Shown: in pieces, positions 1,251 to 53,568 of the stretch
Position numbering within the stretch: position 1 is the stretch's first letter
How the letters are laid out: every line of letters starts with the position of its first letter
Assembly: GCA_013388435.1 (NCBI GenBank)
Contig: JACAFE010000022.1
Location: 1-53,568 of the forward strand
From: Nitrospirota bacterium
Lineage (GTDB): Bacteria; Nitrospirota; Thermodesulfovibrionia; Thermodesulfovibrionales; SM23-35
Length of the DNA stretch: 53,568 nucleotides
Reading direction: 5' to 3'
Position numbers and translations under genes: made by a program
Notes under the pieces: model-generated
Told to the model about the DNA's origin: nothing
The model's input: only the letters and a program-made list of their open reading frames with translations
The model's database searches: none

Positions 1251-1807
1251 AATGCAGACATTTCCCCTAAATCAAAAAGGATAAAGCGAAGAGCGTTTGT
1301 TGCGTTTATAGCGTTTATCAAATTTAATGCTTCGCATTGGAAGTGAGACCCGCTTTGCGGGTCTGGAATTGAGTGCCGAAAAACGGCACTAGAAGTTAGT
1401 CGCTCTGGCGACTGGAATTTATCAAACTGTTTATAGCGTTTATTGAGTTCGTTGCGTTATAGCGTTTAGTTAAAACTGCACGGAGGACGGCACAACAACA
1501 AAGGCAAAGAGCGAAGAGCAAAAAAAGGCTGAAGGCGATAGGCTGAAGGCAATAGCGTTTATTGCGTTCGTTGCGTTCGTTGCGTTCAATTAAAACTGAA
1601 CAGCACAAAGCGTAAAAACAAGGGTGAAGGCAAAGAGCAAATAGCATATAGCGAATAGCTTATAGTAAACAACAATTAACATAATCAAATGGCGATAACT
1701 CAATTTATGGAACAAAATCACAGGTCTATTTTTATTCAGGAGCGAAGCTCACTCATACTTCAGCCTTCAGCCTTTTTTAAATTTCGCAACATTTGCATTA
1801 TTTCAAC
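1251..1807. repeat. Mosaic intergenic repeat element, copy 1 (outer inverted ends, GCGTTT-rich module, hairpin array, MITE half, GCTGAAGGC module)
   Basis: Right end CCTTTTTTAAATTTCGCAACATTTGCATTATTTCAAC (1771-1807) is the reverse complement of the left ends seen at 16549 and 44105; left end aatgcagacatttcccctaaatcaaaaagg is degenerate. Confidence 0.65.
1326..1420. repeat. Tandem array of four perfect hairpins with different stems separated by 7-nt RGAAKTK linkers
   Basis: aatgc-ttc-gcatt | ggaagtg | agacccgc-ttt-gcgggtct | ggaattg | agtgccg-aaaaa-cggcact | agaagtt | agtcgc-tctg-gcgact | ggaattt. Confidence 0.8.
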
Positions 1808-1834: not shown

Positions 1835-2686
1835 ATGGAACAGAAGGATTATTACAAAATACTTGGTGTAAGTGAAAACGCTTCTTTTGAAGATATAAAG
1901 AAGACATACCGCAAACTGGCTTTCCAGTATCACCCTGACAAAAACCCCGGAAATGAAGAAATGATGAAAGAACTCAATGAAGCTTATGCAGTACTTTCTG
2001 ATGAAAAGAAAAGAAGAGAGTATGATTTTTATAGAAATAGCTATGGATTTAATGCAAGAGACAGGTTCAGGCAGACTTATTCAGAACAGGATATCTTCAG
2101 GGGATCTGATATAAATCAAATCTTTGCTGAATTCAGCAAAGCATTCGGTTTTAACAGACCAGAGGATATTTTCACACGCAACAGTTTTTATGGAGAGCAG
2201 TTCAGGACTTTCCAGTTCAAAGGTCCTGGATTTGCCGGAAAAGGCTTTTTCTTTTTCGGAAATATCTCAAAACCATATGAGGATATTTTAAAAAATCATT
2301 CATATCAAACAGAAAATATCTCAGGTGAAAAACCTTCCTTTATCTTAAAACTTTTGCTTAAGGGATTCAAAGCAATACAGAAAAACATAGCAAAAAAATA
2401 TGGACTTGAGCTTCCGCAAAAAGGAAAAAATGTTGAAGATGAAATCACTATTTCTCCGGAAATTGCTTCAGCAGGTGGCAAAGTTAGCTACTTTTACTCC
2501 AATCCTGATAATCCGCGTGAAATAATGATAAAAATCCCACCCGGGGTAAAACAGGGCCAGAAAATTAAACTTAAAGGCATGGGCAAAGCCGGCAAATACG
2601 GCGCTGAAGCCGGTGATTTATATCTAAAAGTAAAGGTTCAAAAAACAATTCTCGGGAAAATCAAAAAACTTTTTAAGCTCAAATAA
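1835..2686 (+). CDS. DnaJ/CbpA-like J-domain co-chaperone with one C-terminal substrate-binding domain and no Cys-rich zinc domain
   Basis: [36 protein letters not shown] (HPD motif); C-terminal [35 protein letters not shown]. Confidence 0.9.
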
Positions 2687-2727
2687 AAATATAGATAATA
2701 GCTTCTATTTTTAATGCTTCTCACATC

Positions 2728-3399
2728 TCAGAAAAAAGTTTTTAACAAATCAAAAGGCATAGAGAAATCCTTTACTACATAATCTGCTCCTGCTTCTTGA
2801 AGTTCTGCAACACTATATGGACCTGTGGCAACGCCAATAGAAATGGCTCCATAAATATGTGCGCATTCAACATCGCGCGGGGTATCACCAATTACAATGC
2901 ATTCATGAATATTTATTTTACTTCCAGATAAAAGCTCAAACCTTTTCACAGCAATTGGCAGAAGTTGATTCCTGTCTTCGTGATCGCTGCCAAATGCACC
3001 TGCAGGAAAGAATTTATTAAGTTTGAAAGGTTCAAGTTTTATTCTCGCTCCCATCTCAATATTTCCTGTAAGAAGTCCTGTCAAAATATTTTCTCTTTGA
3101 CTCAAACTATTTAAAATTTCGTAAATTCCCGGTTTGACATGTTTTTTATCATTATTAATTTCTCTACTTAAATTGAACAAATAAGCTTCAATAACTGTTT
3201 CAAAATCTCCATTTGCTGACAGTCCATGTTTTTGCAAGCATTCCTTTATAATCTGTGAATCTGTTTTTCCAGCCATACTAATTTCTTTAAATGCATTTTC
3301 AATAGAAAAGATTTTTTTAAAGGCAAGGTTGAGTGAACGAACCCCTGCTCCGCCTGAATCAATAAGTGTTCCATCTATATCAAATAATAAAAGCTTCAT
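2728..3399 (-). CDS. HAD-family hydrolase (phosphoglycolate phosphatase-like)
   Basis: LLLFDIDGTLIDSGGAG ... GLLTGN ... IVIGDTPRDVECA. Confidence 0.88.
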   Translation of the reverse strand: MKLLLFDIDGTLIDSGGAGVRSLNLAFKKIFSIENAFKEISMAGKTDSQIIKECLQKHGLSANGDFETVIEAYLFNLSREINNDKKHVKPGIYEILNSLSQRENILTGLLTGNIEMGARIKLEPFKLNKFFPAGAFGSDHEDRNQLLPIAVKRFELLSGSKINIHECIVIGDTPRDVECAHIYGAISIGVATGPYSVAELQEAGADYVVKDFSMPFDLLKTFF

Positions 3400-3473
3400 T
3401 TTAATTACCCCAAAAAATACAGATTGTAAAATAAACCCAAAAAGTTATGAGCAAAGAGCAATAAACAGACAAC

Positions 3474-3812
3474 TTACTTTTTGAAGAGCAAAGTATAAAA
3501 TATATATTTCGCAATTGCTTCTGCATCATCGTCTGGAATTTCTTCTTTAGAGAATTTTGGCATACCTGCTTTTGGATTTCTTATGGCATTGATAATATCC
3601 TTCTCATCTTTTATTTCTTTCAATTTACTATTGTCCTGATGGCACATAATACAATGATTCTCAAATAATTTAGAACCAGAAATTTCCTGAGATGGAATTT
3701 TTGAAGACGGTTTTTGCATATCTAACTCTTTTTCATTTTTTGCACAACCATAAACAACTAATTGCAATGCGAAAAGAATTATTGAAATAAATAAGAATAA
3801 TTTACTTTTCAT
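3474..3812 (-). CDS. Small c-type cytochrome, probable lipoprotein
   Basis: Signal sequence with lipobox-like VVYGC; haem motif CIMCH; GMPKF distal Met region. Confidence 0.82.
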   Translation of the reverse strand: MKSKLFLFISIILFALQLVVYGCAKNEKELDMQKPSSKIPSQEISGSKLFENHCIMCHQDNSKLKEIKDEKDIINAIRNPKAGMPKFSKEEIPDDDAEAIAKYIFYTLLFKK

Positions 3813-3826
3813 ATAAGCTATCTCCT

Positions 3827-5119
3827 TTAAATATTTTTTTTTGAAAAAAAAGGCTTTCTAATATTATATTCTTTATCAATGCTATAAGCCATTATAACTG
3901 CTTTGTCAATATCTTCAAAAGGAAAATCTGGAGATTCAAGTATTAAATGTGGAGCCTTATCATCATATTTTAAATTAAATTCGGAACTTTTTTCATAAAG
4001 GATTGTTCCTGGCAATACATGCAAAATACTGAAAACAATATTTGAAGGTTTCATATCTATTATTGTTTTTGCGGAATGAACAAATTTAAAGAAATTATCC
4101 CCAGGCAAACCTATAATAAGATCACTGGTTACCTCAATCCCGTTTTCTTCAAGAAGTTTTATCGCGTTTCTAAATTTGTCTGCTTTATAAAATCTGTTAA
4201 CAATTTTTAAAGTATCTTCATTCACTGTCTGAGGACCTGTCTCAACACTTTTAATATTAGCTTTTTTAAATAAAGGGATTGTTTCTTCGTCAACAAATTC
4301 AGCAATAATCTCAACAGTTCTAAGCTCACTCCCAAAACGATTAGCAGAAGCAATTATTTCAGCAAGTTTTGCAAGACGTTCTTTTCTTAAATTAAAGACT
4401 GTATCTATAAAATGAAAACTTTTAATATCAGGGTTACTTAATACAAATTCAATTTCTTTTTTAACTCTATCTTCAGGGAAAAATCTTAATTTCGGTAAAT
4501 TTTTCCCTTCATAACAATAGTGGCATCTAAAGATACAGCCGCGATAAGTCTCTATATATGTAACCTTATCTCTCGGGATTAATATTCCCTCTAAATACGG
4601 AGAAGGAATTTCACCCAGATTTTCAATCGGCTCTCTGTCAGGATTTTCAATAATGCTTCCATTTTGTCTGAATAAAATACCAGGTATACCGTTTAGACCT
4701 GAATTATTCAAATAATGTCTGAGAACATCTGAAAAGGTTATTTCACCTTCTCCTTTGACAACTATATCTAAAAAAGGATTTTCTGCAAGGTATTTTAAGC
4801 CTGCTGGACCTGCTTCAGGTCCGCCAAGAACAATTATTGTATCAGGAAATAGTTTTTTAATTATTCTTGCAGTATCAAGTACTTTCAAAATATTCCAGCA
4901 GTAGCAAGAAAATCCTATCATTTCCGGTTTTATTTGAGATAGGTAATAGATAACCTGCTGGACATTAAGAATTTCGGTATCAAAATCAATTATTTCTATA
5001 TCAATATTTTTTCTTATCAAATCATCTTTTAAGGCATACGCCTTAAGATAGCCAAGAGCAAGAGAAAAATGGTTTGCCCAATTGAAGGATATTAGAGCAA
5101 CTTTCTTCCTATGATTCAT
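3827..5119 (-). CDS. B12-binding-domain radical SAM protein (BchE-like family)
   Basis: Start set at MNHRKKVALISFNW; VLGGPEAGPAG B12-binding region; CIFRCHYC (CxxxCxxC). The ORF track extends upstream to 5299 inside the neighbouring gene. Confidence 0.85.
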   Translation of the reverse strand: MNHRKKVALISFNWANHFSLALGYLKAYALKDDLIRKNIDIEIIDFDTEILNVQQVIYYLSQIKPEMIGFSCYCWNILKVLDTARIIKKLFPDTIIVLGGPEAGPAGLKYLAENPFLDIVVKGEGEITFSDVLRHYLNNSGLNGIPGILFRQNGSIIENPDREPIENLGEIPSPYLEGILIPRDKVTYIETYRGCIFRCHYCYEGKNLPKLRFFPEDRVKKEIEFVLSNPDIKSFHFIDTVFNLRKERLAKLAEIIASANRFGSELRTVEIIAEFVDEETIPLFKKANIKSVETGPQTVNEDTLKIVNRFYKADKFRNAIKLLEENGIEVTSDLIIGLPGDNFFKFVHSAKTIIDMKPSNIVFSILHVLPGTILYEKSSEFNLKYDDKAPHLILESPDFPFEDIDKAVIMAYSIDKEYNIRKPFFSKKNI

Positions 5120-5960: not shown

Positions 5961-6090
5961 AATAACAACTTATCCTTATTTTACTTATATAAAATTATAA
6001 CATAACAAATTGGATTATACTTTTCTCTTTAACTTAAAAATTGCAGTTAAAATAATTATGAATAACTAAACGTGATAACATAATGATGGC

Positions 6091-6249
6091 AATAACTCAA
6101 TTTATGAAACAAAATCACGGGTCTATTTATACTGAGGCTGAAGTCAAAGCGTAAGCCCCAGAGATAAAACATGCAATCACATCACAATAGAAAATAGAGC
6201 CATGTTCTTATATTAAGATAGTTTATTTTGTTTCATAAATTGAGTTATT
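6091..6249. repeat. MITE-like inverted-repeat element, 159 bp, perfect 25-bp terminal inverted repeats
   Basis: Left AATAACTCAATTTATGAAACAAAAT (6091-6115), right ATTTTGTTTCATAAATTGAGTTATT (6225-6249); internally homologous to 41040-41207. Confidence 0.85.
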
Positions 6250-6426
6250 CTCTGATTTTTTATTCTAATAAAAAAATCATCAGGCTAAATAAATTTATTT
6301 CTGTTATATGCATTTTTAATTTAACATTTAACTGCATTTTGGAAAAATATACTTGAAATTTATTTCATTTTAATTTATTATTAATATAATTACTATAAAT
6401 ATTATAATAACCAAAAGGGAGGTAAT

Positions 6427-16431: not shown

Positions 16432-16548
16432 ATTGACTCCCTTTCAGCCCCCCCCGACTGAAATATCTTATATGTTCTTACTTTTTAAGTAATTTTATAA
16501 CTACTTAATTAAAAAAGCAATATTTTTTTATTAATCCAAAAAATGCTC

Positions 16549-16573
16549 ATGAAATAATGCAGACGTTGCGAAA
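16549..16573. repeat. Solo end of the mosaic intergenic repeat (GAAATAATGCAGACGTTGCGAAACT)
   Basis: Matches the 44105 element end and the reverse complement of 1780-1806. Confidence 0.6.
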
Positions 16574-40799: not shown

Positions 40800-40885
40800 C
40801 GTTCAGTTTTATAAAGTAAAATTAACCCAAAAAAATGCAATTTATAAATAATACAGATGTTGCAAAATCTTTTTTATAACAACCC

Positions 40886-41009
40886 CCTTAAAAAAGGGGG
40901 AACATGGCAAAAAGCAAATAGCGTTTGTTGCGTTCATTGCGTTATAGCGTTTAATATACAACCCTTAATCCTCCTTAAAAAAGGGGGAACATGGCAAAAA
41001 GCAAATAGC
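40886..41009. repeat. Direct repeat pair CCTTAAAAAAGGGGGAACATGGCAAAAAGCAAATAGC (40886-40922 and 40973-41009)
   Basis: 37-bp identical copies, 87-bp spacing. Confidence 0.85.
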
Positions 41010-41039
41010 TTATAGTAAACAACTAATAACATAATCATA

Positions 41040-41207
41040 TGGCGATAGCTCAATTTATGAAACAAAATCACGGGTCTATTTTTACTGAGGCTGAAGTCGA
41101 AGCGTAAGCCTCAGAGATAAAATATGCGACTGCATTAAAATATAAAAATAAAGCCATGTTCTTGTAATAAGTTAGTTTATTTTGTTTCATAAATTGAGAT
41201 ATTGCCA
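41040..41207. repeat. MITE-like core, 168 bp, 29-bp near-perfect terminal inverted repeats
   Basis: TGGCGATAGCTCAATTTATGAAACAAAAT / ATTTTGTTTCATAAATTGAGATATTGCCA. Confidence 0.85.
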
Positions 41208-41316
41208 GATATCCTGTTTTCATAAAATCATCGGGTTTACCCGCCTCAGATGGATTTATCCGCCTTTGGCGGACAAAATAAATTTTTAAGCAATGTCTTC
41301 ATTATTCAGTTTAAAG

Positions 41317-41823
41317 TTAATTTACATACCTATACAAAACTGTTGTCTCTGCTCTGGTAGCATCAGGTCCTGCAACAACAGTGTTTATTCTGTAAAAAAC
41401 CGATGAGCCTTTGCTCTTTGCAAAATCCAAATCAGAGCCAGGCGACTGAATTGAGTAAAGTCTTCTAACTGTTATATCTGCATGATATGGTTTAAATATC
41501 TCTATGCCAGGAAGAATCAAGGTTACCGTACAATCTTTATTGCCTTCTATAACGGATTTAACGAGACAGGATGAATGATCAGAAAAAGGCAAATCTTCAA
41601 TTCTGTCGCCCAACATTACAAGGTTTATTGCATTTTCCATTAATTGAACTGCTCCATCTGCTGCTTCTTCTGCTGTAGAATATCTTTTGCCAGCACCTGC
41701 AATTCCAGTTGATATTACAAGGAAATAGATAGTGCCTGATATTAGCAACATTACCACAAGGCTTATGATTAATGCAGTCACAAGTGCTATTCCATTTTCA
41801 TTTAAAAAATTAAATCTTTTCAT
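41317..41823 (-). CDS. PilX-like minor pilin
   Basis: MKRFNFLNENGIALVTALIISLVVMLLISGTIYFLVI prepilin motif. Confidence 0.78.
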   Translation of the reverse strand: MKRFNFLNENGIALVTALIISLVVMLLISGTIYFLVISTGIAGAGKRYSTAEEAADGAVQLMENAINLVMLGDRIEDLPFSDHSSCLVKSVIEGNKDCTVTLILPGIEIFKPYHADITVRRLYSIQSPGSDLDFAKSKGSSVFYRINTVVAGPDATRAETTVLYRYVN

Positions 41824-43978: not shown

Positions 43979-44104
43979 GATTTTTTATCTCTCGTTCCAG
44001 CATCTATTTGCACTATTTTTATTTTATCTGGTGCTGAAAAAATACCTTGAATTTGTTATATCTCTCGCAAAATTATTTCGTTGAGCTTAGCACATGAAAT
44101 TCTA

Positions 44105-44345
44105 TTGAAATAATGCAGATGTTACCTTGAAATTTAAAAAAGGTTAAAGGCTTAAGTCTGCAGGCTGAATAATGAGTGATCTTCGCTACTGATTAAAAAA
44201 GACCCGTGATTTTGTTTCATAAATTGAATTATTCCCATTTTATTATGTTATTAGTTGTTTACTACGAACCATAATCTCTTCGTTATTTGCTAAATTCCCC
44301 CTTTGTTAAGGGGGTCAGGGGGTTGTATATTCCTTTTTTATACAA
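44105..44345. repeat. Mosaic intergenic repeat element, copy 4 (MITE half and GGGGGTT module in inverse orientation)
   Basis: TTGAAATAATGCAGATGTTacctTGAAATTTAAAAAAGG; GACCCGTGATTTTGTTTCATAAATTGAATTATTCCCA; AAGGGGGTCAGGGGGTTGTATATTCC. Confidence 0.7.
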
Positions 44346-53066: not shown

Positions 53067-53153
53067 TTTTAATGCATTTCTTATCTTAAAAAGTAAAGAT
53101 GGTATTATAATACAAATTTATAAACCAGGAAATCTATTTATCCAAAAATACAA

Positions 53154-53383
53154 TTGAAATAATACAGATGGCATAAAATAAAAAAGACTGAAGGCTTCAG
53201 GCTGAAGGCAAAAGGCGTTTATTGCGTTATTGCGTTTAAATAAAACAACAAGATGACAAAGGAATATACAACCCCCTTAATCCCTCTTGACAAAGGGGAA
53301 ATCTTACTTATAGCAAATAGCTTTTGGTTCCTCGCTCTTTGCTTTTATCCTTTTTAAATTTCGTAACATTTAAATCATTTCAA
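53154..53383. repeat. Mosaic intergenic repeat element, copy 5, with both outer inverted ends
   Basis: TTGAAATAATACAGATGGCATAAAATAAAAAAG ... CCTTTTTAAATTTCGTAACATTTAAATCATTTCAA; internal GCTGAAGGC, GCGTTTATTGCG, TATACAACCCCCTTAATCCCTCTT modules. Confidence 0.7.
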
Positions 53384-53568
53384 CTTCACTTTTTTAGTAA
53401 AGATGAGACAGATTCAACAGATGATATATACTTTTTTTAACTTGCAGGTTTAGAATTCGTAGGAGAAAAATACAGCTATAGATTTGCTTTCTGCATAACT
53501 TACTACAGAAGGTTTTGCTGAATGAGTTACCATTAATAAGAATTTATCACCGTGTATTATTGGTTCAA

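Follow-up and report, generated by a model that had tools for sequence, protein, structure and literature searches.

Sequence-divergent hairpins with perfect pairing are usually read as functional RNA. The 53,568-nt Nitrospirota stretch analysed here (referred to in full as the window) carries four such hairpins in a row at positions 1326–1420, which raises the question of whether the array is a structured RNA under selection or a DNA sequence that is copied and altered for reasons of its own.

Structure and folding of the hairpin array

A sequence-only reading of the window had described four perfect stem-loops separated by 7-nt linkers at a pitch of 20, 26 and 26 bp, and this description matched the sequence exactly. 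On the forward strand, hairpin 1 (AATGC-TTC-GCATT, 1326–1338) is followed by the linker GGAAGTG (1339–1345) and hairpin 2 (AGACCCGC-TTT-GCGGGTCT, 1346–1364) by GGAATTG (1365–1371), both assigned from sequence and folding. Hairpin 3 (AGTGCCG-AAAAA-CGGCACT, 1372–1390) with linker AGAAGTT (1391–1397) and hairpin 4 (AGTCGC-TCTG-GCGACT, 1398–1413) with linker GGAATTT (1414–1420) were assigned from sequence and alignment of the copies described below. The linker AGAAGTT is unique to the window copy, with GGAAGTT at the same place in the other copies, and linker position 5 alternates between G and T (GGAAGT., GGAATT.). Direct TTTATCAAA words lie on either side of the array (1314–1322 and 1418–1426, forward strand), and the four hairpins between them form a core module of approximately 115–120 bp (1314–1434, forward strand).

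The same four hairpins were predicted to form on both strands (RNA z = −3.7; opposite-strand DNA z = −5.1), with no shuffled sequence being equally stable. A scan for chains of four perfect hairpins (stem at least 5 bp, loop 3–5 nt, gap 5–9 nt) found one in the window, at the 1326–1420 locus, whereas 20 Markov-1 sequences of equal length had no such chain, so that the suggested comparison with shuffled sequence came out in favour of the array. The four-hairpin stretch is real, and its many copies in the genome close off an origin by chance.

Strong folding and the location of GGA in unpaired linkers are both features expected of a structured RNA, such as a terminator, a 3′-end stabiliser or a small RNA whose GGA sites would bind a CsrA-type protein, in which selection would maintain the pairing and keep the GGA linkers unpaired. 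Against this, the hairpins are not followed by a T-run, and a search of Rfam 15 returned no match at gathering thresholds and no credible weak match. Together with the placement and variation of the copies reported below, these observations make a structured RNA quite improbable.

Copies and genomic placement

Searching the genome to which the window belongs (G000; 2.15 Mb in 88 contigs) with a 561-bp query gave 91 matching segments. The array module was present in 33–34 contig instances, 17 of them wholly internal, confirming that the linker-hairpin pattern recurs at other loci. Thirty-three instances could be aligned over approximately 120 bp with 93–100 % identity, sharing the core TTTATCAAATTTA-[h1]-GGAAGTG-[h2]-GGAATTG-[h3]-GGAAGTT-[h4]-GGAATTTATCAAACTG; the 34th, at C2:16707, is partial. 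Approximately half of the instances lie at or near contig ends, where one copy may count twice, and the end of contig C30 and the start of contig C2 carry a common variant, and synteny with a same-genus genome (G001) links them. Based on the 17 internal instances, we estimate roughly 25 or more independent loci. The suggestion that the array arose by something other than simple duplication does not hold within the genome, where the copies are ordinary near-identical duplicates; here the array is more widespread and less mysterious than it had first appeared.

All array copies are intergenic, barring overlaps with short ORFs of 81–124 codons that are probably spurious. The window array is flanked by lpxI and a dnaJ-like gene. 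The upstream neighbour was on the same strand as the array in 14 cases and on the opposite strand in 13, giving no orientation bias relative to flanking genes, which indicates that the array has no fixed relation to the starts or ends of genes. Intergenic placement without such a bias argues against a gene-linked RNA element. Coding on the antisense strand was also considered and rejected: although some copies have an open frame tens of codons long, indels and mixtures of 8- and 9-mers disrupt it.

In a comparison of L211 (G001:C2) 2095–4065 with contigs C73 and C29 of G000, one gene was found to differ in orientation, with respect to its neighbours, from one genome to the other. Arrays are located at the G000 contig edges near this inverted gene, and may mark rearrangement points.

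Composite islands and a second repeat

Array copies are framed by 9-mer tracts of the form TTTATWGCG (TTTATAGCG, TTTATTGCG). For the window copy, sequence reading placed the left tract (TTTGTTGCG/TTTATAGCG words) at 1286–1313 and the right tract (TTTATAGCG/TTTATTGAG words) at 1429–1470, both on the forward strand. Tracts of this kind lacking arrays are present in other genera of the family. Several genera of the family commonly carry intergenic word mosaics built of 9-mers (GCGTTTATA), the heptamers GCGAATA and GGCTGAA, and AAAGTC words (L163, L169, L175, L178 and similar); these look like a short-word satellite and had no match to a described family.

The window array was confirmed to lie inside a mosaic repeat element, a composite island at approximately 1241–1825 with its left end (CCCACATAATGCAGACATT) at approximately 1243–1261 and an inverted motif at its right end (1779–1825). 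Many copies are bounded on the left by TTAACCCAAATAATGCAGACATTGC and on the right by inverted TTAACCCAAAAAATGCAATTGAAATAATGCAGATGTTGC. Where an island has both ends, terminal inverted repeats are present, with the end motif on the plus strand at the left and on the minus strand at the right, and these inverted ends measure approximately 40 bp. Read by eye, the left island end was present in roughly 15 of the 27 copies with enough left flank, and since not every copy has both island ends, the array may also move alone.

These features bear on a passive origin, in which satellite tracts of 9-mers would have slipped and recombined, spreading the array as just one more word, with no mobile element involved. 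Copies do lie within 9-mer tracts of widely varying length and order, and TTTATCAAA acts like one of the 9-mers on both sides of the array. However, the array core varies far less than the tracts, the islands have inverted ends, and insertions at orthologous loci (see below) are aligned to those ends, making a purely passive mosaic very improbable.

Array-free sister islands with TTAACCC-family ends were identified in the window at 40822–41335 and 53136–53401, as well as further single ends of this family, also without an array, at 44087–44135 and 16531–16573. The island at 40.8 kb contains a second MITE-like repeat and a TCCGCC-TTT-GGCGGA hairpin. As the sequence-only reading had it, this hairpin is present at approximately 41.26 kb and absent from the 6.28-kb place; it lacks the linker and was rejected as a member of the array family. 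Full copies of the second repeat were found at 6085–6262 and 41039–41203, and partial copies at 1689–1740 (forward strand) and 44196–44238. It has 25-bp perfect inverted ends (AATAACTCAATTTATGAAACAAAAT at 6091–6115 and 6225–6249), adjoins about a dozen arrays in G000 and had no plasmid matches.

Probable gain of islands at orthologous loci

One same-genus genome (G001) was available for comparison and was sampled over 0.69 Mb, with at most 20 kb taken from the start of each of 40 contigs. The TTAACCC end family also occurs there, bounding short elements of approximately 190 bp. Neither the array nor the second MITE-like repeat was found in the 0.69 Mb, and genome BLAST found no array in G001.

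Three orthologous loci (C30/C2, the C53 end and the C16 end) have an island in G000 and none in G001. At C30/C2, the 9-mers, array, heptamers and MITE of G000 together span several hundred bp, against 67 bp between the same genes in G001. At the C53 and C16 ends, the two genomes are collinear almost up to a TTAACCC or TTAATCT end and then diverge. With two genomes compared and loss in G001 as the alternative, a lineage-specific gain in G000 at the three loci appears favoured, and the near-identity of the copies suggests that it would have been recent. Such lineage-specific insertion is a further point against a structured RNA. The TTTATCAAA words were rejected as a target duplication, a pattern search having found no array-free GNGTTNRTCAAANTGTT in G000, G001 or G006.

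Variation among copies

Measured per site against the consensus, the 33 instances differed most in flanks (4.1 %) and loops (2.7 %) and least in linkers (1.0 %) and stems (0.7 %). On raw counts, which include changes shared by descent and so overstate the effect, stems varied less than loops (Fisher p = 0.001). The lower divergence of stems and linkers relative to loops and flanks is modest when such shared changes are taken into account. The lower rate of change in stems than in loops could reflect constraint, and the lower divergence of stems and linkers compared with loops is the pattern that a structured RNA would predict.

The stem-pair changes point the other way. Eleven were listed, of which 10 were distinct, a change of pair 36/46 to C-T being common to two copies (C57:54745 and C83). 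Pairing was broken in nine of the 10, and one was compensatory, a G-C to A-T double change in hairpin 3 of copy C1. An excess of compensatory over breaking changes, as expected for a structured RNA, was therefore not seen within the genome (one versus nine), and the proposed selection on structure through pairing was not borne out there. Likewise, the claim that stems are unrelated while pairing and linker are conserved fails within the genome, where stems are nearly invariant; it is upheld across genomes, as described in the next section.

In copy C54, the hairpin 2 loop TTT is exactly inverted to AAA between unchanged arms. Template switching between inverted repeats is reported to yield loop (spacer) inversion and arm correction (PMC8604942), and perfect stems can be created and maintained by this process (PMC8794818). 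The within-genome variation fits recent amplification and DNA-level hairpin mutation better than RNA selection, and the array in G000 resembles a sequence that was copied recently and bears slight marks of such mutation, not an RNA under strong selection for pairing. Positive support for an RNA function does not extend further than folding and modest constraint.

Relatives with the same linkers and different stems

Among 231 genomes of the class, with matches read individually, real arrays were found only in G000 (87 linker-pair matches) and G015, and another pattern applied to 396 genomes of the phylum recovered the same two. Matches in other genomes of the family were 9-mer or heptamer tracts only and were rejected as arrays, and a loose structural pattern was discarded as evidence, having matched all 41 genomes at near control level except in G000. 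In GTDB r220 contigs, the linker-pair pattern matched 31 places, three of which were real on inspection: Nitrospirae bacterium Kmv42, Bacillota SpSt-1200 and candidate division WOR-3 RS_19_7. The Kmv42 match has the same coordinates as that of G015 and belongs to another genus of the host's family. An exact 28-mer had no match in these contigs, phage and plasmid collections had no match to either the window array or the Kmv42 array, and IMG/VR scans gave chance coding matches only.

The Kmv42 array reads AATCC-TTC-GGATT GGAAGTG AGC-TTC-GCT GGAATTG AATGC-TTC-GCATT GGAAGTG AGCC-TTC-GGCT GGAA, with a second, shorter array 130 bp upstream. SpSt-1200 carries AATCC-TTC-GGATT GGAAGTG AGC-TGC-GCT GGAATTG along with another copy that is degenerate, while WOR-3 RS_19_7 has a single hairpin, AGCC-TTC-GGCT, between GGAAGTG and GGAA. 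Thus, another genus (Kmv42) and other phyla (SpSt-1200 and partly WOR-3) have relatives with TGGAAKTGA linkers and intact pairing, and with stems unlike those of G000; in hairpin 1, the fourth pair is C-G in some and G-C in others. This cross-genome set consists of few sequences, all from metagenome bins in which binning errors are possible. The part conserved across genomes is the linker and not the stem, which is unusual.

Pairing kept across genera despite different stems would again suit a structured RNA. A different reading of the same relatives is a cross-phylum family of head-to-tail arrays in which the TGGAAKTKA linker is recognised, stems may be any perfect palindrome, and a dedicated enzyme, RAYT-like or other, copies the element as single-stranded DNA while hairpins are remade between linkers; we regard this as unlikely.

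Comparison with REP sequences and other repeats

The resemblance to REP, BIME and REPIN sequences with their RAYT transposases (PMC3116915, PMC3733652) lies in short, palindromic, intergenic repeats in high copy number, an unpaired constant tag beside each stem and the presence of a RAYT-like gene in the genome. The latter, at G000:C37 (L142:1333–1980), encodes a 215-aa Y1 transposase and was the sole Y1_Tnp gene found in the genome. It scored above the cut-off for PF01797, and 66.7 bits against NF047646 (REP-associated tyrosine transposase), for which the curated cut-off is 80. It lies among small genes resembling toxin–antitoxin pairs and is closely preceded by a near-perfect hairpin (CTTGCACTTC/GGAAGTGCAAG).

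The array could accordingly be pictured as a REP-like element moved in trans by a RAYT-type (HUH, Y1) transposase, with hairpins and unpaired GGAA words serving as single-stranded recognition sites. One transposase gene and many dispersed hairpins is indeed the REP pattern (PMC3116915, PMC3733652). In contrast to REP systems, no array occurs within the 3.3-kb locus of the transposase gene, and the NF047646 score is below the cut-off. The terminal unpaired GTAG or CGTC tag is absent, the unpaired words being GGAAGTG, GGAATTG, GGAAGTT and GGAATTT (TGGAAKTKA). The copied unit is the whole module of four different stems, often within islands bounded by terminal inverted repeats, and its strictly head-to-tail arrangement is unlike that of described REPs (PMC3733652). 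Movement by a RAYT-type enzyme is consequently rather unlikely, and the array looks like a new kind of small REP-like intergenic repeat.

The islands share with MITEs and nested MITE islands their inverted ends, non-coding and intergenic nature, lineage-specific insertion and versions in a same-genus genome. They differ in having a variable cargo as interior (9-mers, heptamers, hairpin array, second MITE) and in lacking an identified autonomous partner or target duplication. Cyanobacterial small dispersed repeats are also proliferating intergenic hairpin repeats scattered among taxa; the present repeats differ in forming arrays of four with near-constant 7-nt linkers. The repetitive hairpin-forming elements of sponge mitochondria (PMC2800124) proliferate between genes and are scattered among taxa in the same way, whereas the array resides in a bacterial chromosome and combines four hairpins with near-constant 7-nt linkers.

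Origin and significance of the array

Taken as a whole, the array is probably a non-coding selfish dispersed module, often the cargo of MITE-like islands, whose hairpins originate and mutate through DNA-level processes; we hold this with moderate confidence. A transposase acting on the inverted ends would move the islands, and recombination between 9-mer tracts may also spread or homogenise the arrays. Template switching during replication would create and alter the hairpins, giving perfect, unrelated stems between constant words; the loop flip in C54 and the compensatory pair in C1 are the two changes that suggest it. Such a scheme would not require an RNA or host function.

With tens of copies, empty sites in a same-genus genome and distant relatives with other stems, the array offers a natural test case for the origin and spread of hairpins at the DNA level without RNA selection. 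It also allows the question of which enzyme moves such arrays to be asked.
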